Assembly: GCA_028704385.1 (NCBI GenBank) | Contig: JAQVLA010000005.1 | Coordinates: 1 to 64,000, forward strand | From: Bacteroidales bacterium | Lineage (GTDB): Bacteria > Bacteroidota > Bacteroidia > Bacteroidales > F082 | Direction of reading: 5' to 3' | DNA: 64,000 bases | The notes under the pieces: model-generated | Seen by the model: the letters and a program-made list of their open reading frames with translations, nothing else | Database searches by the model: none | What the model was told of the DNA's origin: nothing | Shown: positions 29,446 to 47,206 of the stretch, one piece after another | Layout of the letters: each line of letters opens with the position of its first letter | Numbering within the stretch: the first letter of the stretch is position 1 | Position numbers and translations under genes: made by a program

Positions 29446-31369
29446 TGATATCCAACTGCTTTTTACTTCTTAAATATCCGTTACCATCCTTCACAATTAA
29501 GCCATTATCAGTAAGCCATCTGATCACTTCCAAAACCTTTTCCTCAGAAATACCCTCAACAGCACTGGCTGCTTCAAAAACCGGTACTGGTCTTTTCTGC
29601 AGCATTTCCATAAGCTTGTCGCGAACTTTCTGAAAGACCACATCTGACACCGATATGCTGTTTCGTTTGAGACAAACATCACACTTACCGCAGCGTTTGC
29701 GATGTGTCTCTCCAAAATAGGCCAGTAATTGAATACTTCTGCAAACATCATCATTTCTTACAAAATCAATAACCGCCTGAATCCGTTTAGCAGCGCTTTT
29801 TTTTCGGTCGGCATAAATCTCATTACTCAACTGCAAATCTTTTGAAGCCAACCGCTCGCTTATCATTATCAACTGCGGCTTTTCTTTTCGTGCTGCGTAC
29901 GACAGAAACTGAAAATCATGCAGTTTTTGCAGCATTGACGTGGTTTGCTGCGCAGAGATATTTAACTTTGAAGCTATCTGAGGCTCATCTATTTTCACAA
30001 AATCCGATAAAATTCCCGGAAAATTACGCAACAAAAACTTGATAAAACCATCATAGGCCGGTTGCTCTACCTGAAACCGATACAAATCCTCCCTGCTGGC
30101 CCGGATAAAAACTTTTGAAGTTTGATCTTCATTTTCTGTCAAACTTAACAACCCTTCCTTTTCGAGCAGATGCAGACTATTGAAGGTTTCTAAAACATTG
30201 AAGTTGTAATTCTTTGTAAAACTTGTTAATTCAAAATCGAAATGTTGATCTTTTCCGGCACCTACCGGAATTTGCAAAAAATTACCAAGTGCTTCATACA
30301 CAACTCTTATCTGTTTGAGAGGAGGAAAAGAGGCCTCAAAACCATCTTTAAGATTCTTGATATCTGTTTCTGAAACTATCAAAAAGGTTTGTGCTTGTTT
30401 GCCATCTCTACCAGCCCTTCCGGCTTCCTGAAAATAGGCTTCGAGGCTATCCGGCAGATCCATATGAGCCACAAGTCGCACATCGGGTTTATCAATTCCC
30501 ATTCCGAAAGCGTTGGTTGCTACCATCACTTTAAATTTGCCAAACATCCAGCTTTGTTGCCGCTGGTCTCTTGTTCGGGCATCCAGTCCGGCATGATAAT
30601 AGGTCGCACTTATCCCGCGGCTGCTCAGCCAATCCGCTATCTCTCTGGTTCGTTTTCGGTTTCTAACATATACGATACCACTCCCCTGATCCAGTTTTCT
30701 GAACAACCGAAACAAAACACCAAACTTATCGGCCTCGTAAAGAACGCTATAGGTGATATTTTTCCGCTCATAACTGGTTTGAAAAACCTGTGCATTTTTA
30801 AAATGCAACTTCTGTTGAATATCACTTACAACATCTGGTGTTGCTGTGGCTGTAAGGGCCAAAACCGGAACTTCAGGTATATAGGGTCGTATTTCGGCAA
30901 TCCGCAGATAAGGTGGCCTGAAATCATAGCCCCATTGCGAAATACAATGCGATTCGTCCACGGCCAACAGATTCACTTGCATTCGTTTCACTATATCGAT
31001 AAAACGGTCAGTTACTAATCGTTCGGGAGAGAGGTAAAGAAATTTCAATTTGTTAAAAGCTGCCTGATTATAAGCCAGTTCCATTTCCTGATAATGCATC
31101 CCCGAATAAACGGCAGCAGCTGCTATCCCATTTTTTTTCAGGTGTTGCACCTGATCTTTCATCAATGCAATCAAAGGAGTGATTACCAGACACATGCCGG
31201 GCATCACCATGGCCGGCACCTGAAAACAAATTGATTTTCCGCCACCTGTAGGAAGCAGTGCCAGGGTATCGTTTCCTGCAATAACATGGTCAACAATTTC
31301 TTCCTGCATTGGCCTGAAACTGCTGTATCCCCAGTATTTTAATAAGGCTGCTCTGCTTTCCTTGCTCAT
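29438..31369 (-). CDS. recQ: RecQ-family ATP-dependent DNA helicase
   Basis: 643 residues. Motif I TGGGKS ends at residue 46, motif II DESH is at 138-141 followed by CISQWGYDFRP, and motif VI is in the QEAGRAGRDGK stretch. The RecQ-Ct zinc-binding part has a Cys cluster CRSI..KRCGKCDVC near 545-570, followed by a winged-helix-like C-terminus. No HRDC domain is visible, so it is a short RecQ, as in one of the two usual Bacteroidota paralogues. It lies 17 nt after the hybrid kinase and overlaps mpg. Confidence 0.94.
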   Translation of the reverse strand: MSKESRAALLKYWGYSSFRPMQEEIVDHVIAGNDTLALLPTGGGKSICFQVPAMVMPGMCLVITPLIALMKDQVQHLKKNGIAAAAVYSGMHYQEMELAYNQAAFNKLKFLYLSPERLVTDRFIDIVKRMQVNLLAVDESHCISQWGYDFRPPYLRIAEIRPYIPEVPVLALTATATPDVVSDIQQKLHFKNAQVFQTSYERKNITYSVLYEADKFGVLFRLFRKLDQGSGIVYVRNRKRTREIADWLSSRGISATYYHAGLDARTRDQRQQSWMFGKFKVMVATNAFGMGIDKPDVRLVAHMDLPDSLEAYFQEAGRAGRDGKQAQTFLIVSETDIKNLKDGFEASFPPLKQIRVVYEALGNFLQIPVGAGKDQHFDFELTSFTKNYNFNVLETFNSLHLLEKEGLLSLTENEDQTSKVFIRASREDLYRFQVEQPAYDGFIKFLLRNFPGILSDFVKIDEPQIASKLNISAQQTTSMLQKLHDFQFLSYAARKEKPQLIMISERLASKDLQLSNEIYADRKKSAAKRIQAVIDFVRNDDVCRSIQLLAYFGETHRKRCGKCDVCLKRNSISVSDVVFQKVRDKLMEMLQKRPVPVFEAASAVEGISEEKVLEVIRWLTDNGLIVKDGNGYLRSKKQLDIND

Positions 31370-37424: not shown

Positions 37425-37432
37425 TAGCTTTG
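37425..37432 (+). promoter_or_regulatory. -7 box of the TiaS-like operon
   Basis: TAGCTTTG is a perfect TAnnTTTG, 28 nt before the TTG start at 37461. With transcription starting a few bases later, the leader is only about 20 nt, too short for a riboswitch. Confidence 0.5.
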
Positions 37433-37460
37433 CAATACTAAAACTAATTTTACAGAAAAA

Positions 37461-38204
37461 TTGAAACAAACCATTCTGATAGGCATTGATGATACCGACA
37501 ACAAAGAAAGTCGTGGCACCGGCTATAATGCCCGTCAGTTGGGACATTTGCTGGAGCGTAAAAAACTTGGAGAAGTCCATTCCATCAGTCGCCATCAGCA
37601 TTTTGTGCATCCGGATATTCCTTTCACATCCCAAAACAGCTCAGCCTGTTTGTATCTTCAAAACGGAAATATTGACCAACTTATTCCTGTTTGTCAACAA
37701 TTTATGCAACAAAGCTGTGTTCCGGGATCCGATGGTGGCCTGGCAATTGCCAGCCTTGACAACATCGCAGAGAAAGTGATTCACTGGGGTAAAATGTCAA
37801 AAAAAATTGTTTTAAAACAAGCAGATGCATGGCAACTGGCCAAGGAAAATGATATTTTTCTGGAAGGTTTTACTGGGAATAATGACGGTGTGATAGGTGC
37901 TTTGGCTGCAATCGGACTCAGAAAATGGGGAAACGATGGCAGATGCATCTGGCTGAAAGGAAAGGAAATCCGTGAAATTTCCGGAATTTTTTCTCAGGAA
38001 TCATTGAAATCAATTTGCCCGATTGACCTCATCATCACCGAAGAAGGTATCGCAGCAGAAGCAGACGATCTTATCCAAACCGGTGACTGGATGAGGCCGG
38101 CAATAAAAAATCACAAGATCACCCTTTATATTGAAAAGTCGAATCACCCCAAATACAAATGGCATGCTAAACCCAAATCCCGTCTCAAAGCACTTACCGA
38201 TTAG
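37461..38204 (+). CDS. stand-alone TiaS-like kinase-domain protein
   Basis: 247 residues, TTG start (no nearby ATG). The start GIDDTDNKESRGTGYNARQL (8-27) matches the GIDDTDSP...T.Y motif of the ATP-using kinase domain of archaeal TiaS, the tRNA-Ile2 agmatidine synthetase. Further matches: RHQHFVHPDIPFTSQNSS (like TiaS NPNIPWKT.GN) and NDGVIGALAAIGL near 142-153 (like the family's GLIGALAAIG). The C-terminal OB-fold and zinc ribbon of true TiaS, used to bind tRNA, are absent. Bacteria use lysidine instead of agmatidine, so another substrate is likely. First gene of a five-gene operon with membrane and outer-membrane transport proteins; a salvage-kinase role is my inference. Confidence 0.72.
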   Translation: MKQTILIGIDDTDNKESRGTGYNARQLGHLLERKKLGEVHSISRHQHFVHPDIPFTSQNSSACLYLQNGNIDQLIPVCQQFMQQSCVPGSDGGLAIASLDNIAEKVIHWGKMSKKIVLKQADAWQLAKENDIFLEGFTGNNDGVIGALAAIGLRKWGNDGRCIWLKGKEIREISGIFSQESLKSICPIDLIITEEGIAAEADDLIQTGDWMRPAIKNHKITLYIEKSNHPKYKWHAKPKSRLKALTD

Positions 38205-38715
38205 CCGTACAGCCCTCGAAATTGTTGTGTTATCACTGATAGGAATAGCAGCCGTTGTGATCAGGACCAAACTGCGAATTCCACTCAATATGCCCGGCCA
38301 TCATGGGCTGGAAGTGATGGCAATTCTGTTGATCGGACGTCATTGGGCAAAGCTGCCGCTGGCTTCTTCCATCAGCAGTTTGTCATCTGCCCTGTTTTTA
38401 TTGTTGCCCTGGGCTGGCATTAAGGATCCGTTTCTTCCGTTCATATATATTTTGATGGGAATCATAATTGATCTGCTTTATCGGTTTACCTTTTCTGAAA
38501 AAAGAATGTTGTTATCACTGGTGATCATTGGCAGTATTGCGTACAGCATCATCCCGCTTTCCCGCCTTTTAATTCACTTCTCAGTTGATTATCCTTACGG
38601 CTCATTTGTTAAAACCGGTTATTTATATCCTGTTTTTTCTCATTTTATATTTGGTGCTGCCGGCGGATTGTTAGCTGGTCTGCTGATCAAAGCACAACTT
38701 AAAATCACCAAATGA
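38164..38715 (+). CDS. six-helix membrane protein resembling an ECF S-component
   Basis: 183 residues from the ATG at 38164, overlapping the upstream stop by 41 bp; the longer frame uses TTG at 38131. Six hydrophobic segments are visible (about residues 17-38, 47-62, 66-87, 91-109, 118-144 and 154-179), with PGHHGLEVMAILLIGRHW between helices 1 and 2. Size and helix number suit the substrate-binding (S) part of an energy-coupling-factor vitamin importer, but no diagnostic family motif is recognised. It is placed between a TiaS-like enzyme and a lipoprotein/TonB receptor pair, consistent with moving the same ligand across the inner membrane. Confidence 0.7.
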   Translation: MLNPNPVSKHLPISRTALEIVVLSLIGIAAVVIRTKLRIPLNMPGHHGLEVMAILLIGRHWAKLPLASSISSLSSALFLLLPWAGIKDPFLPFIYILMGIIIDLLYRFTFSEKRMLLSLVIIGSIAYSIIPLSRLLIHFSVDYPYGSFVKTGYLYPVFSHFIFGAAGGLLAGLLIKAQLKITK

Positions 38716-38753
38716 TTAATTTTTATAATTTGATATTAATAAGATTTAGAATC

Positions 38754-39665
38754 ATGCGAATTGTAATAAATTTCATAACGATTGTAACATTCTTAGCCGT
38801 CTTCTGCTTTGTTGGCTGCACTAAAGACAAACAACATCCAGGATTAAAACCTGAAATTAAATTTCTTAAGGCAGCAGAATTAATTTCTTCGGACACCATT
38901 CTGGCCATCAATCAAAAAGTTAAAATCGGAATTGAAGCCAGCTCCAAATCGGGTGCTCCAATCACCCAATTAACTGTAATTTCAAGCTTTGATGAAAACA
39001 CTACTTCAATCGACTCGGGATTATACAGCTCCGAATTTCAATACAACATAGAAATTACGAAAGGTTTGGCCGAAACAGAACATTGGCGGTTTTATGTGAA
39101 GGATCGGGATGGTAATTGTTCAGATACCATTGGTTTGAAACTTTTTAAAGATGAAAGTTCAGGATTTGGTCCAATTCAATCCTTTGGAAACATTGTTCTG
39201 GGAGCACAATTCAATTCCGATCCGGGAAGTTTTTATTCCTATGAAACAAACCGAACTTACACTATTTCAGAAGCTTACGATAACCAACAAATCATTGACT
39301 TATTATATTATTACGATATCGTGGAATCTGACGCGCACACCATTGCCTCTCCGGGAGCCAATATTGATCAGGCCATATACAACAGCGACCTGGCTCCTGC
39401 AAATTGGACAACACGCACCACCTTAAGATTTGAATATTTACCCGATCTCACTGCTGAAGATTTTGAATCATGCACAAATGACAGCCTGATTCTTTCCAAC
39501 ACTTTTGTTTTTGGATCAGGCAAAAGAAAAGCAAAAAATTTGTCTCCGGGTCAGATTTATGCTTTTGTTAGCGAAACCAACGAAAGAGGAATATTCACAG
39601 TTCAAAGGCTTGAAGGTGAAGCAAATGGATATGTTGAGATTTCAATAAAAATGCAGGAGCAATGA
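38754..39665 (+). CDS. lipoprotein of unknown function
   Basis: 303 residues from the ATG at 38754, chosen because MRIVINFITIVTFLAVFCFV then GC (Cys22) makes a normal lipoprotein signal; an earlier ATG at 38712 overlaps the upstream stop as ATGA and would lengthen it by 14 residues. The mature protein has beta-rich, immunoglobulin-like stretches (SSDTILAINQKVKIGIEA, DTIGLKLF) and no recognisable enzymatic motif. It sits directly before the TonB receptor (ATGA overlap) and probably acts as a surface or periplasmic partner of it. Confidence 0.75.
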   Translation: MRIVINFITIVTFLAVFCFVGCTKDKQHPGLKPEIKFLKAAELISSDTILAINQKVKIGIEASSKSGAPITQLTVISSFDENTTSIDSGLYSSEFQYNIEITKGLAETEHWRFYVKDRDGNCSDTIGLKLFKDESSGFGPIQSFGNIVLGAQFNSDPGSFYSYETNRTYTISEAYDNQQIIDLLYYYDIVESDAHTIASPGANIDQAIYNSDLAPANWTTRTTLRFEYLPDLTAEDFESCTNDSLILSNTFVFGSGKRKAKNLSPGQIYAFVSETNERGIFTVQRLEGEANGYVEISIKMQEQ

Positions 39666-41737
39666 AAAAGATACTTTTACTGACATTTTTTGGCTTTATT
39701 TTTTTTAGTCTTTTCGGGCAAACTCAAGACAGTTTGAAACGTGAAATCGAACTTGGTGAAATAGTTGTTACAGCAACACGTACTTACCGTCAGGCCAACG
39801 ATTTACCCGTACAAACCAATTCCATTTCAGCTAAGATGATTCAAAACTTTCCGGTTTTGAATATCGATGATGTTTTAAAAACCACTGCCAATGTTTTTGT
39901 AAACCGAAGCTGGGGAATTTTCTCAAAAAATGCTGCCGTCACCATGCGTGGACTCGAAAGCAGCGACAGGACGCTAATTCTGATTGACGGACTTCCGAAA
40001 AACAGATTAGCAGGTGGATCGGTCAACTGGCATAATATCAATCCGGATCAGATCGAAAAAATTGAGATCATCAAAGGACCAGCTTCAGCATTGTATGGCA
40101 ATAATGCCATGGGCGGCGTGATCAACATCATTACAAAAAAACCACAAACCGATTTAAGTGGAAATGCACGTGTTTTCTATGGCAGCCACAATACATTGGG
40201 CGGATCAGTAAGTGCTGCAGGCAATAAATTTGAAAACGACAGAGGCTTCTACTGGCAAGTAACCGGTAATTATAGGCGGGGTGATGGTTACATCTTTGAA
40301 TTGCCAGAGTTTCTGGACGAAACAGACGCCAAAACAAAACTTGATGAAGGCGGCGGAAGCCTCAAACTGGGTTACCAATTTAACAAGCATAATAACATAG
40401 AATTCGCTATGGATCATTATCAGGAGAAACGCGGAGCTGGTCGTCAGGTTTATGCCCCCGATGGCAGCTTTGATGAATACCTGACAAATACATTTCGCAT
40501 CACTACTAATAATTTATTAGCTGGTGGACTTTTGCAAAGCACCATTTATTATTCCGCTGAAAACTATTACGGACAAAAGGAAAGCTTTAATGAATCAAAA
40601 GAATTCAAATTGCTGGATGCCTACACTGACAGGGAAGATCTTGGTTTGATGTCGAACTGGTCGAAACGCCTTTCTGCAAAGCACCTGCTAACAGCCGGAA
40701 TAGAAGTGAAAGCAGGTACAATGAAGTCACATGAAATCTATCGTACTTCACCCGATGAAATTGAAGCCGCAAGCAAGATGATCATTTATGGAATTTATTT
40801 ACAGGATGAAATCAAACTTTCACCCGAAAAATGGCAGCTTATCGCAGGTCTTCGGGCTGATTTCTCCAACTTTTTCCAGGGATGGCAAAGGGTGACGAAC
40901 CCAACAAAATCAACTGGCTTTGAACAAAGTTTTTATGAAGATTTTCCGGAAACAAGCTGGTCGGCTTTAAGCCCGAAGATCGCATTGCAATACCAGCTTA
41001 TTCCTGAGCTTGAAACCTATGTTTCTGTAGGAACTGGTTTTAAACCGGCTAAACTTAAAGACTTAAGCCAGTCGGGGAAAATCAACAAAGGTTTCAGGCT
41101 GGCAAATCCCAAGGTAAAACCGGAATACCTTACAAATTTTGAATGGGGTTTTCATTTTGATCCGAACAACAAATTCAGGCTTTCCGGAGCAATTTATCAC
41201 AGTATTGGCCGTGATTTTCAATATTCGATTGGAACCGGTGATTCAGTTGACACCGGAGGTAACAGCCTAAAGCCTGTTATTCTTACTGATAATGTAGCTG
41301 AAATTTCTGTTACAGGTGGAGAATTGTCCATGCATTATTTTGTGCATCCGCAAGTGCTTTTTCAGGCGAGTTATTCTTATAACAATTCAGTTATAACTTC
41401 TTATATTCCAAATATTAACATGCCGGATTACAACCTTTCAGGCAAAAAAATGACAGAAGTGCCCCCGCAACTTTTTTATGCAGGTGTTTTCTGGCAAAAT
41501 AAATATTTCAACCTGAATATAAATTGCAGCTTCATTGATGAACAATGGTTTGACGTAGAAAACACCATAAAAGTTGACAGCTGGTTTTTGATTAATGCCA
41601 GGATATCACGTATTTTTGCCAAACAATACGAAATCTATATAGATATTCAGGATTTGCTTGACAATCCCTATGTTGATCGTAAAGGTCAGCTTTCGCCAGG
41701 CAGATTTATTATAGGAGGTATTAATTTTAAATTTTAA
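39662..41737 (+). CDS. TonB-dependent receptor (BtuB/CirA-like)
   Basis: 691 residues. Signal peptide (1-20, ending FGQT), TonB-box-like EIELGEIVVTATRT at about 30-43, plug domain (about 45-155: MRGLESSDRTLILIDGLPKNR, ALYGNNAMGGVINIITKK) and a barrel ending GINFKF. It lacks the CarboxypepD_reg domain of SusC-type receptors, so it is the classical small-ligand type used for cobalamin, siderophores and similar. It overlaps the lipoprotein gene by 4 bp and the next gene starts 12 nt later. Confidence 0.9.
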   Translation: MKKILLLTFFGFIFFSLFGQTQDSLKREIELGEIVVTATRTYRQANDLPVQTNSISAKMIQNFPVLNIDDVLKTTANVFVNRSWGIFSKNAAVTMRGLESSDRTLILIDGLPKNRLAGGSVNWHNINPDQIEKIEIIKGPASALYGNNAMGGVINIITKKPQTDLSGNARVFYGSHNTLGGSVSAAGNKFENDRGFYWQVTGNYRRGDGYIFELPEFLDETDAKTKLDEGGGSLKLGYQFNKHNNIEFAMDHYQEKRGAGRQVYAPDGSFDEYLTNTFRITTNNLLAGGLLQSTIYYSAENYYGQKESFNESKEFKLLDAYTDREDLGLMSNWSKRLSAKHLLTAGIEVKAGTMKSHEIYRTSPDEIEAASKMIIYGIYLQDEIKLSPEKWQLIAGLRADFSNFFQGWQRVTNPTKSTGFEQSFYEDFPETSWSALSPKIALQYQLIPELETYVSVGTGFKPAKLKDLSQSGKINKGFRLANPKVKPEYLTNFEWGFHFDPNNKFRLSGAIYHSIGRDFQYSIGTGDSVDTGGNSLKPVILTDNVAEISVTGGELSMHYFVHPQVLFQASYSYNNSVITSYIPNINMPDYNLSGKKMTEVPPQLFYAGVFWQNKYFNLNINCSFIDEQWFDVENTIKVDSWFLINARISRIFAKQYEIYIDIQDLLDNPYVDRKGQLSPGRFIIGGINFKF

Positions 41738-41749
41738 AAAAACTAAACT

Positions 41750-42592
41750 ATGAAACACATTTATCTTTTTCTGATCACGTTGATGATCACTGCAAGTACT
41801 TTTGCACAGACTGAAACTCTTGCAAAATGGACTTTCCCATCAGGTGATGTTGCCGATACGCTGGCTGAAGAAGCTAATGAATTTAATCAAAATGCTTTCC
41901 TGTCAACCATGGGCGGAACCGGTGCCATTGAAATGAAAAATGGCGAAACCACTAAAGCTGCTCAATGTAATGGATGGGATAACGGTGCTGGTACCAAAGC
42001 CTGGTACATTCAAATAAGCACAATGAGCCACAAGAATATTACTGTGAGTTCCAAGCAGCAATCCGGCAATAACGATCCCGGACCAAAAGATTTCAAACTG
42101 CAGTTTAAAACTGAAGATATACGCGATTGGATAGACATTGAAAATGCTGAGATTTCTGTAGTAAACGACTGGACTACAAGCGCTTTAGTTAATTTTCAAC
42201 TTCCTGAACCTTGTGAAAATCAGGAAGTGCTATTAATCAGATGGGTGCTCACCTCAAATCTGGATATCAATGGCGTTGAGCTGGTTGAAAGCGGCAAAAC
42301 CAAAATTGATGACATAGAAATAAAAGGTGAAGTTTTTACATCTTTAGATCAAATTGATGACAAAAAAAATCCCATAATTCTTTATTATAATTCTGACAAT
42401 CAGATTCAATTCAAGAGTTCAATTCTAATAAAGCAAGTATTACAGTATGATTTGTCGGGTAGAGAGCTGCAAAAAATTAGCTTTGATGATTTTTCTGGCA
42501 CCATCACAAACCAGCAAAGACAAGGCATTAGCGTTCTAGTTTTTCAGGATCACCAAGGCAAAAGTTATGCTAAAAAAGTTTTAAACCTCTGA
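41750..42592 (+). CDS. T9SS-exported protein of unknown function
   Basis: 280 residues. Signal peptide ends at ASTFAQ (about residue 20). The middle (about 22-195) resembles a beta-sandwich that could bind ligand: LAKWTFPSGDV and KAWYIQISTMSHKN are typical of secreted galactose-binding/lectin-like modules. The last about 75 residues form a T9SS type A sorting tail (VLQYDLSGRELQKI, GISVLVFQDHQGKSYAKKV, ending LNL). It is the last gene of the TiaS-like/TonB operon. It may be a surface-exposed ligand-binding protein that feeds the receptor; this is inference. Confidence 0.72.
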   Translation: MKHIYLFLITLMITASTFAQTETLAKWTFPSGDVADTLAEEANEFNQNAFLSTMGGTGAIEMKNGETTKAAQCNGWDNGAGTKAWYIQISTMSHKNITVSSKQQSGNNDPGPKDFKLQFKTEDIRDWIDIENAEISVVNDWTTSALVNFQLPEPCENQEVLLIRWVLTSNLDINGVELVESGKTKIDDIEIKGEVFTSLDQIDDKKNPIILYYNSDNQIQFKSSILIKQVLQYDLSGRELQKISFDDFSGTITNQQRQGISVLVFQDHQGKSYAKKVLNL

Positions 42593-42669
42593 AAATAACA
42601 ACTTGTATTTTTAACTTAAAACAATGATAATAAAGTAACTGTAAAGTTTAACTTCATCATTAGGCAACA

Positions 42670-42715
42670 AATAAAGAGGCTGATTCATCAACTGATTCAG
42701 CCTCTTTATTTTTTA
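42670..42715. terminator. strong bidirectional terminator
   Basis: AATAAAGAGGCTGA (42670-42683) pairs perfectly with TCAGCCTCTTTATT (42697-42710) around a 13-nt loop, followed by TTTTT on the plus strand and preceded by an A/T stretch for the minus strand. It closes the five-gene plus-strand operon and the convergent receptor gene. Confidence 0.9.
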
Positions 42716-42732: not shown

Positions 42733-45627
42733 TTAGAAGTTATAGTTAATGCCGATACTAATTGCCCTGCCGGGCTGATAAACCTCATAAGGCTGATTTT
42801 CTGCTTTATAAGATTTATAAACTTCGTTAAATGTCTCTCCAAGCAGATTGGATACCTTGAGATCGATCATCGTTTTGCCAGACTCACCAAGTTTTTTATT
42901 GATACTAAAATTCAAACTATGAAAAGGCTCAACATAAATATCCGGGAAAAGCCCACCTCCAATGATGGTTAGAGTGGAACCCTTCACATTGTAAAACATC
43001 CCTGTTTCCATTCCAAACTTATCTATCTTGTATGTTAATCCGGCATTAATAACATAAGGCGACTGGCCTGCCATCACACGAGACTTTTTAATTGTTTCGC
43101 CAGTTTTTTCGTAGGTTTTGCGCGAATTAAACTCAGCATCCGTCATATCAATTTCTGAATAAACCAGGGTCAGGTTTCCACTAAAGCTCAATGCCTGCAA
43201 AGAAGGTGACAGGAAACTCATGTCTTTTCGCAATTCGAATTCAAATCCAAATAATTGCCCGTCACCCACATTACGAGCCTGATATTCAGTACTTGTTTGT
43301 TGCGTTGGAATGCGCACCAGTTCGATTGGTTTATCAAATTTTTTGAAGAATCCACTCAGGCTTATCATTTGGCCTCTTTCCAGGAACCATTCCCACCTGA
43401 TATCCAGGTTATCAATTCTTGTCTCAACCAGTTTTCCATCCCAATCGGGGTAAATGTGCAGACTTCCATTAAAAATTCGATTGGTTATAGGATCGATAAT
43501 CTGTGCAAAAGAAAGCTCTTTAAATGATGGGCGGGCAATTGTTTTTGCATAAGCTAATCGGAGGTTTTGATCAGGTGTTAAACTATAGATAAAATTGATG
43601 GAAGGAAAAAAATCCATGGCATCAAGCACTATATCATTATCCAGATTATTGCCTGCTAGTCCTCCACTTCCCGAATACTCCTGGTCGCGACCTGTATGCC
43701 GCTGAACAAAATTTTCCAACCTGACTCCCAATATGGATTTTAATCTGTTAATTGGCTGAAATTCAATCGATACATATGCAGACAGCATATTCACATTTGA
43801 GCTATATTCATTGGAATTTGGATCGTTGTTACCGGTTTGATAGTATATTCCATTAGGCCGGTTTGGGTACAAATTTTGATCGTTCAGCACCTCGTTAACA
43901 TCAGAGCTTTCCCAGCTTTGTCCGGACGAAAACTGAATATCATAAAACAGGATTTCATAATCCCTGAGCTTATAATTATGGCTACCTCCAAATTTAAGTT
44001 TTGCAGGGTTTTTTCGAATCACAAGATTTTTTGATACATCAATTTTAGCGGTATTGTTCACCTCATCCAGATAACGCCAGATGCGCGAAGGATTGCCCCC
44101 GGCACCTGCCATAAATAAGGTATCACGCTCCCGGTAAGTAAATGCTGTTTTTCTGATATCCGGATCATCCGAGCCGGACTTTGTGGGTGATATCCGCCAG
44201 TCGATTTCCCAGCCCGAACTTCCCAGGAGGTGAGTTCCGTTTAACAGCATATTTGTCAGTTCCCGCTGATTATACACCAGATTATCAGATCCGGCAATAT
44301 AACCTGACTGACCCACTGCCTCACCATCGTTGTCAATAAGAAAATGTCCGGCTCTACTTACCCCATTTTGCAGGTGCATTGCAGTCAACTTAAACTTTGA
44401 ATACTGAGATTTATAGGCGATTCCTGCCAGTCCGCCGATCAGAACACTGTGCTCGGCCAATGCACCTTTTTGAATGGTGGCATAGCGCATCTCATATTTT
44501 TCAGGATCAATAAATCGCTGATATTCACCGTAAACCTTACCATCATAGTATTTCTGCTCTGATTTATAAGTCAGGGAAAAAATATAACCCAGCTTATGTA
44601 TTTTTCCGCGCTTCGACAGCATATCAATTTGATTACCAATTGATAAGCTAAGGCCGTAGTCAGCAAAACTTCTTTGTTTCGCTGCACCAAGCCTTGGATT
44701 AAAACTTCTGACAAAATCGACCACTTCCTGTTCGGCTGCACCGTTGTAAGGAGTGGGTATGGTTTTTCCCCTGGCTCCGTCAGGCAAAGCTCGTGTGCCG
44801 TCATCAAAACCTAAAAAGTCAGTTTTGCCACCTTTGTAGGATAGGTAATCAGGATTGAAATGCATATCAGGATTAAAACCTATATCTGCCGATACTGTTA
44901 TCGTTTTCGTCTCCGGAAAATCCTTGGTTTCAATATTGACAAGTCCTCCTGTGAAATCTGCAGGAAGCTCGGCAGTGAAATTCTTCACAACCATAATATT
45001 ATTGATCAGGTTGGTTGGAAAAATATCCATTTGCAAAGAGTTTCGGTCAGGATCAAGACCCGGGATATCAACATTGTTGAGTGTGGTTTTTGAATAGCGA
45101 TCACCTAAACCTCTCACATATACGTATTTACCATCCTCGATAGATACACCGGTAACACGCTTGGCCGCTTCCACAGCATTCCCATCTCCGGTAAGTCGTA
45201 TTTTGGCTGATGAGATACCATCAAGCATGGAAGCCGATTTTTTCTTTACAGTAAGCAAGGCAGTTTCTGTTGTGCGAATGGCTTCGGCAGAAACAACAAC
45301 CTCGGCCAGCTCCTGGCTGCTTTCTTTCATGATCAGATTATCAAGTATAGTGACCTTATCTGCTTCTACAACAACATTTTCCAACACTATGGTCTGATAT
45401 GAAATATAGGACAATTGCAGCGTATATTTCCCTGGAGCTACTTCAAGAGTAAACTGACCATCAAGATCAGACATTGTGCCGGTAGTTGTGCCTACAAGCA
45501 GCACGGTAACTCCAACCAGTGTTTCACCACTCAGGTCTTCATAAATGGTTCCCCTGATTTTTCCGTTTTGAGCCAGCAAACTCACAACTGAAATTATTAA
45601 ACTGATTATCAGAAAAATACGCTTCAT
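42733..45627 (-). CDS. TonB-dependent receptor with CarboxypepD_reg domain
   Basis: 964 residues. Signal peptide (1-19, ending SLLAQ), CarboxypepD_reg domain (about 22-100, IRGTIYEDLSGETLVGVTV), plug (about 125-240, KRVTGVSIEDGKYVYVRGLG, TLNNVDIPGLDPDRNSLQMD), and a long barrel ending GINYNF. The plug begins with SSAKIRLTGDGNAVEAAKRVTGV, a form typical of the receptor subfamily that is paired with a beta-helix lipoprotein, as here. It should import a nutrient, possibly phosphorus- or metal-related, but the sequence does not identify it. Confidence 0.9.
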   Translation of the reverse strand: MKRIFLIISLIISVVSLLAQNGKIRGTIYEDLSGETLVGVTVLLVGTTTGTMSDLDGQFTLEVAPGKYTLQLSYISYQTIVLENVVVEADKVTILDNLIMKESSQELAEVVVSAEAIRTTETALLTVKKKSASMLDGISSAKIRLTGDGNAVEAAKRVTGVSIEDGKYVYVRGLGDRYSKTTLNNVDIPGLDPDRNSLQMDIFPTNLINNIMVVKNFTAELPADFTGGLVNIETKDFPETKTITVSADIGFNPDMHFNPDYLSYKGGKTDFLGFDDGTRALPDGARGKTIPTPYNGAAEQEVVDFVRSFNPRLGAAKQRSFADYGLSLSIGNQIDMLSKRGKIHKLGYIFSLTYKSEQKYYDGKVYGEYQRFIDPEKYEMRYATIQKGALAEHSVLIGGLAGIAYKSQYSKFKLTAMHLQNGVSRAGHFLIDNDGEAVGQSGYIAGSDNLVYNQRELTNMLLNGTHLLGSSGWEIDWRISPTKSGSDDPDIRKTAFTYRERDTLFMAGAGGNPSRIWRYLDEVNNTAKIDVSKNLVIRKNPAKLKFGGSHNYKLRDYEILFYDIQFSSGQSWESSDVNEVLNDQNLYPNRPNGIYYQTGNNDPNSNEYSSNVNMLSAYVSIEFQPINRLKSILGVRLENFVQRHTGRDQEYSGSGGLAGNNLDNDIVLDAMDFFPSINFIYSLTPDQNLRLAYAKTIARPSFKELSFAQIIDPITNRIFNGSLHIYPDWDGKLVETRIDNLDIRWEWFLERGQMISLSGFFKKFDKPIELVRIPTQQTSTEYQARNVGDGQLFGFEFELRKDMSFLSPSLQALSFSGNLTLVYSEIDMTDAEFNSRKTYEKTGETIKKSRVMAGQSPYVINAGLTYKIDKFGMETGMFYNVKGSTLTIIGGGLFPDIYVEPFHSLNFSINKKLGESGKTMIDLKVSNLLGETFNEVYKSYKAENQPYEVYQPGRAISIGINYNF

Positions 45628-45662
45628 GGCAATGAATCTTTTTGTAATTATTGAAAATCAAA

Positions 45663-45697
45663 GAACAGATCCACTGTGATTAGCAATGGATCTGTTC
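45663..45697 (-). promoter_or_regulatory. intercistronic hairpin between lipoprotein and receptor genes
   Basis: GAACAGATCCA (45663-45673) and TGGATCTGTTC (45687-45697) are perfect 11-nt arms with a 13-nt loop. The structure lies after the lipoprotein stop (45746) and before the receptor start (45627); on the minus strand it is followed by CTTTGATTTTC, a weak T tract. It may be a partial terminator or an mRNA-stabilising hairpin giving unequal expression of the two genes. Confidence 0.6.
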
Positions 45698-45745
45698 GAT
45701 ACTCAGACACAAGTTTTTAAGAATACTTTCAATCGGATCAATTAA

Positions 45746-47206
45746 TTATAAGCCAGACAAAGCACCTGCATTTGAAGCCCATGTCCAACCTAAAACTGAG
45801 GTGTTAACAGTTGAAGAACCGCCAGCAACAACGCCATTGGGAACAACATCACCGGCCACATAGTCAACCAAATTGGCAGCAGGAACATTAAGCATGATAT
45901 TATCGAAATCAACACCGGCAGCATTAACGCGGTTTATTTTTTGTCCTTCAACTATGGCCGTGAAGTAAATATTCCGGAGCGTAACAATCGAGTTTGCATC
46001 CACATTAATCAAATCAGCCGAATAGCGGTCTAATTCAGGATCATTGGCAATTACGATTCCGTTTTGAATGGTATGTCCGGCTTCATAGGAACCTTCAGGG
46101 CCATCCAACTCAAAATTATGATCGCCAGGAGCGATGATCACAAAATTATTAAGAGTACCAGCCCACGACTGGTCGGTATCGATGGCATCATCGCCTGTGT
46201 TCCAAACCACAACATTTGATACGCTTACCGTTCCACCAAACCACTCGATCCCATCGTCCTGGTTGGACACAATTTCAACGTTTTCAATTACAGTACCCGA
46301 ACCGACACCGCCAAGCGTTAAACCATTGATTTCGTTTCCAGCACCTATGTTTGTACCGCCATGACGAATAGAGATATATTTGATCACACCAGAATTGTCT
46401 GCATCATTATTACCACCATAAAGGCCATTGGGATCTGAAGTTGGAATACCTTCAATCTGAACCTGACTTACATCACCACTTTCGTTAGAGGCAGAAATGC
46501 GGGCATTCCCAAGAATAATCACACCACCCCACAAGCCATTCAAATCAGGATCGAGATTAGGGCTGGCGATCTGTCCGGGAATAATTTCATCAGCCACAGT
46601 AGTAAAAATGATGGGTGCATCGGCAGTACCTTCTGCCATCAGTTTGGCACCACGAGCTACCAAAAGTGCAGTGGCATTAGCACCGGTTCCAGCTTCGCCC
46701 TTAACAATTACACCTGGCTGAATTGTAAGTGTAGCACCAGCTTCAACAGCAATACGGGTTTCGAGGATATAAATTTTTCCTGATTCCCAAGTTGTGTTTT
46801 CGGTAATATTGCTGTTGATGCGGAAAACTGATTGCTCGGCAACAACATTTACAACTGCAGTAGCATCATCCGAACGATTGCTTTTATCGGCAATGCTTAA
46901 GGTAACCGAACCTGCACCAGCGTTGTTTCCGGCTGTGAAGCTAACAACTATTGTTCCTGAAGTAGCACCTTCAGTACCGTCAGTTTTTATTACTGCACTG
47001 CCATTGGTGGCTGCAACAGTGGAAGAGGCAAAGCCATCTTCAGCATTATAAGTAAATGATAAGTCAACAGTGGTTCCAACCAATGCTTCAGTTGCACTGG
47101 GAGCATTTACTTTTGGAGCCTGTTTTACATCAGAATCATCATCTTTTTTACAGGATGAAACGATTGCCATCGAAGCAATCAATACATACATCAGGAGTTT
47201 TTTCAT
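45746..47206 (-). CDS. beta-helix surface lipoprotein paired with the TonB receptor
   Basis: 486 residues. Lipoprotein signal with Cys19 (VSSCKKDDDSD, acidic after Cys, as in surface-exposed Bacteroidota lipoproteins). A cadherin/Big-like domain (about 30-125) precedes a right-handed beta-helix region (about 130-450) with regularly spaced short strands: TLTIQPGVIVKGE, GLWGGVIILGNARIS, KYISIRHGG, TVIENVEIVSN, WFGGTVSVSNVVVWN. No catalytic residues can be assigned. Transcribed ahead of the receptor gene. Such lipoprotein-receptor pairs recur in Bacteroidota; a phosphate-starvation role has been suggested for related pairs but is not shown here. Confidence 0.78.
   Translation of the reverse strand: MKKLLMYVLIASMAIVSSCKKDDDSDVKQAPKVNAPSATEALVGTTVDLSFTYNAEDGFASSTVAATNGSAVIKTDGTEGATSGTIVVSFTAGNNAGAGSVTLSIADKSNRSDDATAVVNVVAEQSVFRINSNITENTTWESGKIYILETRIAVEAGATLTIQPGVIVKGEAGTGANATALLVARGAKLMAEGTADAPIIFTTVADEIIPGQIASPNLDPDLNGLWGGVIILGNARISASNESGDVSQVQIEGIPTSDPNGLYGGNNDADNSGVIKYISIRHGGTNIGAGNEINGLTLGGVGSGTVIENVEIVSNQDDGIEWFGGTVSVSNVVVWNTGDDAIDTDQSWAGTLNNFVIIAPGDHNFELDGPEGSYEAGHTIQNGIVIANDPELDRYSADLINVDANSIVTLRNIYFTAIVEGQKINRVNAAGVDFDNIMLNVPAANLVDYVAGDVVPNGVVAGGSSTVNTSVLGWTWASNAGALSGL

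Follow-up and report, generated by a model that had tools for sequence, protein, structure and literature searches.

Which compound is handled by a bacterial operon that joins a TonB-dependent receptor to an S-component-like membrane protein and a kinase-domain-like protein? Such a set of five genes lies in the window (the whole stretch of 64,000 nucleotides analysed here), and a preliminary description had proposed that it salvages a small molecule such as a vitamin or nucleoside by capture at the cell surface, passage through both membranes and trapping by phosphorylation. The five reading frames of that description, with their overlaps, the 12-nt gap, the -7 box and the terminator, were all found where it had placed them, and their arrangement as one operon was borne out:

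37425..37432, plus strand: -7 promoter box (Bacteroidota) TAGCTTTG, inside TTGCATAGCTTTGCAA
37461..38204, plus strand: gene 1, 247 aa, TTG start
38164..38715, plus strand: gene 2, ATG at 38164, reading frame open from 38131, 41-bp overlap with gene 1
38712..39665, plus strand: gene 3, ATGA overlap with gene 2 at 38712, alternative start at 38754
39662..41737, plus strand: gene 4, 691 aa, ATGA overlap with gene 3
41750..42592, plus strand: gene 5, 12-nt gap after gene 4
42669..42711, plus strand: intrinsic terminator hairpin, 15+3 bp, with a T tract on its 3' side

The box TAGCTTTG at 37425 is the sole TAnnTTTG within 134 bp upstream of gene 1. The surrounding TTGCATAnnTTTGCAA is kept in three close relatives (L006-L008), in which only the central nn differs and in which the start codon of gene 1 is GTG instead of the TTG of the window. 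The hairpin at 42669-42711 has a folding energy of -23.9 kcal/mol (z = -9.2) and was absent from the output of a simple terminator scan. No Moco/tungsten riboswitch was detected between positions 30000 and 48000 of the window at E values up to 1, nor in seven related loci. A cobalamin riboswitch (RF00174) occurs on the minus strand of one locus (L032:3553-3768), about 6 kb upstream of gene 1, and is probably unrelated. Downstream, the operon meets a convergent pair on the minus strand (42733-47206), a TonB receptor with a carboxypeptidase-regulatory domain and a 486-aa lipoprotein-like protein, which also adjoins the operon in L006 and L008.

The gene order and the overlap of genes 1 and 2 are conserved

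To place the operon in a wider context, we scanned GTDB genome contigs for relatives of gene 1, of which 462 were confirmed. The best 80 of these 462 were analysed as loci, a sample biased to the closest relatives and consisting mostly of MAGs. The open reading frames of these loci were clustered, and one representative per cluster was scanned. Other Bacteroidales families share the five-gene order, with identities of 33-47%. A locus that belongs to a different family within the class (L005, genome G172) has all five genes in identical order, with identities of 46% for gene 1, 42-44% for gene 2, 34% for gene 3 and 33% for gene 5. Such an arrangement is far from a chance adjacency. Nor did the genes turn out to be members of unrelated, already characterised pathways. 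Within the 80-locus sample, gene 2 comes next after gene 1 in 67/78 loci, position 3 is a lipoprotein in 48/77, position 4 a TonB receptor in 42/70 and position 5 a T9SS protein in 23/63, counts in which many contigs stop early and the loci from outside the Bacteroidota are without genes 3 and 5.

The pair of genes 1 and 2, overlapping at their ends, is likewise present in Chloroflexota, Proteobacteria, Cyanobacteria and Actinomycetota, and the record titles of the carriers name Bacteroidota, Chloroflexota, Gammaproteobacteria, Nitrobacter, Cyanobacteria, Acidobacteria and Actinomycetes. Across phyla, in 51 of 54 aligned pairs, the two genes stand in one frame relation with a spacing that is constant within 12 bases, residue E30 in the first membrane helix of gene 2 starting 14-26 bases past the stop of gene 1. 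So constant a spacing and frame mark the overlap as both old and conserved. Judging from such conservation, the operon is ancient and linked by descent. On a Pimelobacter plasmid, gene 1 is divergent from the gene 2 homologue. Haloarchaeal plasmids carry gene 1 as well; on one of them (L004) no gene 2 was seen, and gene 1 adjoins an iron-chelate/B12-type ABC importer with its binding protein. A search for viral homologues of gene 1 found none.

Some loci carry additional copies of single parts. In Nitrobacter winogradskyi, a broken extra gene 1 that is split over two frames (L080:7203-7975) lies beside an intact gene 1 and gene 2. Second lipoprotein-TonB sets occur in six loci (L013, L016, L020, L023, L041 and L075), some with an as yet unassigned family of lipoproteins (cluster 22), and L016 has three tandem lipoprotein paralogues.

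Protein families encoded by the operon

Gene 1 retains a GIDDTD motif, and the PDB chains of TiaS (3au7, 3amt and 4rvz) match positions 2-153 of its profile with E values of 6e-10 to 1.5e-9. The TiaS-like domain that had been assigned to gene 1 is thus borne out at E values of about 1e-9, while the enzyme itself is not TiaS. TiaS, the tRNA(Ile2) agmatidine synthetase, has its N-terminal TCKD kinase domain with the GIDDTD motif in common with residues 2-153 of gene 1 but possesses C-terminal domains, and gene 1 occurs in tungsten loci. An assignment of gene 1 to TiaS was ruled out by its length (247 aa versus about 420 aa), by the absence of these C-terminal domains and by a score far under the cut-off (NF040849: E 4e-5, 22.4 bits, cut-off 600). 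The best NCBIfam match is TIGR03280, methanogenesis marker protein 11 (E 2e-13, 50.1 bits, cut-off 255.8), yet it covers only positions 133-283 of the 292 in the model and leaves the first 132 unmatched. Gene 1 thus falls short of the TIGR03280 membership score for methanogenesis marker 11. Throughout the gene 1 family, 58/58 members match TIGR03280 and 52/58 match TiaS. PDB 3u02, a stand-alone protein of equal size (252 aa) labelled TFIIS-like, is also hit by the gene 1 profile (E 4e-9); it comes from Pyrococcus furiosus, a tungsten-dependent archaeon. The papers listed by a literature search for 'marker protein 11' deal with human or animal MMP11. By these profile matches, we classify gene 1 as a stand-alone TiaS-kinase-domain-like (methanogenesis-marker-11-like) protein.

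For gene 2, a search by sequence returned no solved structure. Its AF2 model comprises six helices (pLDDT 92.7) and matches ThiT (Z 13.5), 5edl (Z 13.4), RibU (11.9) and BtuM (8.5), where a Z of about 13 is only moderately specific for helical bundles, as chance matches are commoner for these than for other folds. S-components, among them FolT and PanT, account for most of the top matches, with CbiM and BtuM ranking lower. The alignments for structure prediction were made from the window and chosen loci. Gene 2 is therefore predicted to have an S-component fold, in agreement with the earlier assignment. The most conserved region of gene 2 is loop L1, whose motif reads R-x-P-L-x-x-P-G-[HRK]-[HQ]-G; from the positive-inside rule and S-component topology, this loop would face the outside. 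Residues R49, H57 and H58 in the putative outer pocket of gene 2 are conserved. An ECF module that might serve gene 2 from elsewhere in the genome, a point raised in the preliminary description, did not come to light: ECF-T (EcfT/CbiQ, PF02361) went undetected in the draft genome of the window (G000, 96.6% complete), as it did in 29 of 30 genomes overall, and gene 2 would therefore work alone.

The assignments of gene 3 as a lipoprotein and of gene 4 as a TonB receptor both held. Gene 3 has an invariant lipobox cysteine (Cys36) in 47 homologues, and its AF2 model (pLDDT 94.3) combines an Ig-like domain with a C-terminal beta domain. The best structure match is the DUF4466 protein 4ei0 (Z 15.5 over 215 residues), with an rmsd of 18.6 that suggests a different placement of the two domains; the match to Pfam DUF4466 (PF14725; E 0.074, 13.2 bits) is below the cut-off of 25. 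Gene 3 is thus predicted to be an outer-membrane-type lipoprotein, DUF4466-like by structure. In gene 4, the TonB plug (PF07715, 1e-25) and barrel (PF00593, 2e-35) were recognized, and the nearest NCBIfam model is the TonB heme receptor TIGR01785 (198 bits, cut-off 316.85). Gene 4 can accordingly be classed as a TonB-dependent receptor of the heme/siderophore size class that scores under the specific cut-offs among the models listed. For gene 5, export by the T9SS had been proposed. This stands for the family, as 22 of the 24 members scanned match Por_Secre_tail/TIGR04183, whereas the copy in the window scores below the T9SS-tail models; we classify gene 5 as a putative secreted protein of a T9SS-exported family.

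Tungsten and molybdenum genes accompany the operon

A tungsten or molybdenum gene lies within eight genes of the operon in 42/80 loci. The neighbours were identified as ModE by TIGR00637, as the tungsten aldehyde oxidoreductase AOR by PF01314/PF02730 and as WtpA by scores above the curated cut-off. Counted by loci, they include ModE-like HTH proteins (22), PBP-like regulators (16), TupA (14), WtpA (11), AOR (7), ThiF (7), MoeA (6) and MoaA (6), and MoaC and a MOSC-MoaB fusion are also found among them. Five Bacteroidota loci (L025, L032, L034, L038 and L040) bring together AOR, ModE, genes 1 and 2, TonB, MoeA and MoaA, and in two of these, L032 and L038, an almost complete tungsten set surrounds the five-gene operon. 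In a distant lineage, a gammaproteobacterial locus (L084) assembles TupA, a ModE-PBP regulator, MoaC, MoaE and ModE with genes 1 and 2 and a TonB receptor. In the genome of the window, the corresponding genes lie away from the operon: AOR beside ThiF (L091) and WtpA beside a ModE-like regulator (L090), along with a WtpB-like permease and MoaC. The WtpA-ModE pair (L090:7555-14503) is divergent from a Rex-like regulator and bifurcating-hydrogenase-like genes, as read from the sequence.

Other gene families also recur nearby. In four Chloroflexota loci (L043, L049, L069 and L072), a lipoprotein family with an Oxidored_molyb domain, as scanned in its representative, is located near gene 1, and small lipoproteins resembling this family occur in twelve loci (L033, L052, L055, L062-L067, L069, L073 and L076). 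Such Oxidored_molyb-type lipoproteins of Chloroflexota and Actinomycetes are possibly the monoderm counterpart of gene 3; a comparison with the cluster-22 lipoproteins gave no relation. A gene resembling PpnP-type (PF06865) nucleoside phosphorylases is found upstream of gene 1 and near the operon in nine loci (L013, L018, L034, L035, L037, L038, L040, L071 and L082).

The association extends to whole genomes. Among 149 genomes of the same order, 24 have gene 1 and 61 have AOR, and AOR is present in 24/24 genomes with gene 1 versus 37/125 without it. For this same-order sample, Fisher's test gave p = 1.8e-11, or p = 6e-11 once one weak match was dropped, values that serve only as a guide because the genomes lack independence. 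Of the gene-1 genomes in the Bacteroidota set drawn from the 80 loci, 51/52 have AOR versus 2/149 in a sample of the class, the genome of the window being one of the two. WtpA above the cut-off was found in 24/30 carriers versus 0/148 others. Among the 26 carriers outside the main Bacteroidota set, mostly non-Bacteroidota, AOR was present in 18 and not found in 8; the partner of the operon is therefore tungsten and molybdenum use generally and not AOR alone. As 37 genomes of the order have AOR without gene 1, the operon must be dispensable for tungsten use and hence accessory. Taken together, physical linkage and co-occurrence connect the operon to tungsten/molybdenum genes with very high confidence. 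Both indicate tungsten or molybdenum in place of the vitamin or nucleoside ligand that the preliminary description had envisaged.

A candidate route for tungsten acquisition

We probably face an operon with a role in acquisition, and the full explanation that we favour, with moderate confidence, is an accessory acquisition system for tungsten and possibly also molybdenum. At the cell surface, the T9SS-type protein of gene 5 and the DUF4466-like lipoprotein of gene 3 would capture a scarce tungsten species, most likely tungstate bound to an organic ligand, which the TonB receptor of gene 4 would then pull into the periplasm. Free tungstate would subsequently be imported by a separately encoded importer of the WtpABC/TupABC type. 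Gene 2, working without an ECF module, may move the ligand or the chelate over the inner membrane, and the translationally coupled gene 1 may modify it in the cytosol with ATP, resulting in trapping or metal release. The ligand and kinase steps of this route are tentative.

Tungstate is a small oxyanion that is imported by WtpABC/TupABC and should pass porins; the need for a TonB receptor is therefore unexplained without an unseen organic ligand. Metallophore biosynthesis genes were not recognized in an unsystematic look through the loci. Since carriers make molybdopterin (MoaC is present in 47/50, and for two of the three exceptions the available contig stops next to the MoeA/MoaA genes of the operon), a metal or metal chelate is likelier as the ligand than a pterin, and we rejected molybdopterin auxotrophy of the carriers. 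The haloarchaeal gene 1 in L004 fits a chelate-sized ligand, as it adjoins an iron-chelate/B12-type importer, and an importer of this class, the MolBC-A system, also serves molybdate. With no gene 2 beside it, however, the same copy counts against the full uptake model. Phosphorylation of the ligand by gene 1 is plausible; to our knowledge, this chemistry is known solely on a tRNA base. That the receptor and the solitary S-component-like protein import an organic tungsten carrier, which the TiaS-type enzyme phosphorylates in the cytosol for trapping or metal release, is a possibility we put forward with reserve; it would amount to a pathway dedicated to a tungsten metallophore.

Relation to known uptake systems

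The overall logic of the preliminary description, a TonB receptor followed by an S-like protein and a trapping enzyme, has a close precedent in BtuB, BtuM and BtuR, in which a TonB receptor and a solitary S-component are co-localised with an enzyme proposed to trap the ligand (PMC6072759). Both systems contain a small protein of S-component fold without an ECF module and a neighbouring putative trapping enzyme. They differ in that BtuB-BtuM-BtuR handles cobalamin with an adenosyltransferase, whereas the operon described here has a tungsten/molybdenum context, a TiaS-domain protein and an extra lipoprotein and secreted protein. In systems of the HmuY-HmuR type, a lipoprotein shares an operon with a TonB receptor that falls in the heme/siderophore size class, like genes 3 and 4, but in a heme context, while gene 3 is predicted to be DUF4466-like and lies in a tungsten/molybdenum context. 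WtpABC and TupABC occur in the same loci as the operon, presumably for the same metal, and differ from genes 1-5 in belonging to other protein families, acting at the inner membrane and taking free tungstate. With a known uptake logic, a new metal and a new enzyme, we therefore rate the operon as a variation on a known architecture.

Tungsten uptake as known to us ends at inner-membrane ABC importers. In the titles and abstracts listed by our searches of open-access literature, we found no described system for TonB-dependent uptake of tungsten or molybdenum. A recent publication on oxidoreductases that use tungsten gives TupABC and WorX/ThiF as the genes for uptake and accessory functions and leaves TonB unmentioned (PMC13328260). 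If the proposed route is true, some bacteria also possess an outer-membrane route for tungsten, and nature may hold an unknown tungsten-carrying compound. A stand-alone TiaS-like/marker-11-like family and a solitary S-component-like family would gain a functional context, and both could be tested in a carrier that is available in culture, for instance Perlabentimonas gracilis (L075).

Alternative explanations

Genes 1 and 2 might instead form a cofactor-maturation or pterin-modifying module for tungsten and molybdenum enzymes, with the TonB, lipoprotein and T9SS genes merely co-regulated; gene 1 would then phosphorylate a ring carbonyl in the way that TiaS acts on cytidine. The adjoining MoaA, MoeA, MoaC, MoaB and ThiF genes, the nested co-occurrence with AOR and the match of gene 1 to methanogenesis marker 11 are all consistent with such a role. 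We nevertheless consider it unlikely, given the eight carriers without AOR and the TonB receptor that again accompanies genes 1 and 2 in Gammaproteobacteria and Nitrobacter and adjoins them in Brasilonema. Moreover, cytosolic maturation needs no S-component-like membrane protein.

Salvage is disfavoured, be it of molybdopterin or of a vitamin. For molybdopterin, tungstopterin or a breakdown product as the imported compound in place of the metal, one may point to the Oxidored_molyb lipoproteins and their small lookalikes near gene 1, but carriers that can produce the pterin themselves, as the MoaC counts indicate, make this reading improbable. Slightly less credit still is due to salvage of a vitamin, a nucleoside, heme or cobalamin, which the preliminary description had put forward in general terms. 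The models nearest to gene 4 are those of heme receptors, and gene 2 is closest to structures of the ThiT/YkoE/RibU type; the heme receptor cut-off was missed, though, and vitamin or heme genes did not stand out nearby, where molybdenum and tungsten genes are frequent. Finally, gene 2 as a membrane sensor in a module that regulates tungsten uptake with no transport of its own is very improbable: sensor histidine kinases have the S-component fold too (PMC11109136), but no histidine kinase family recurred in the annotated neighbour clusters, and ModE-like and PBP-type regulators are already in place.
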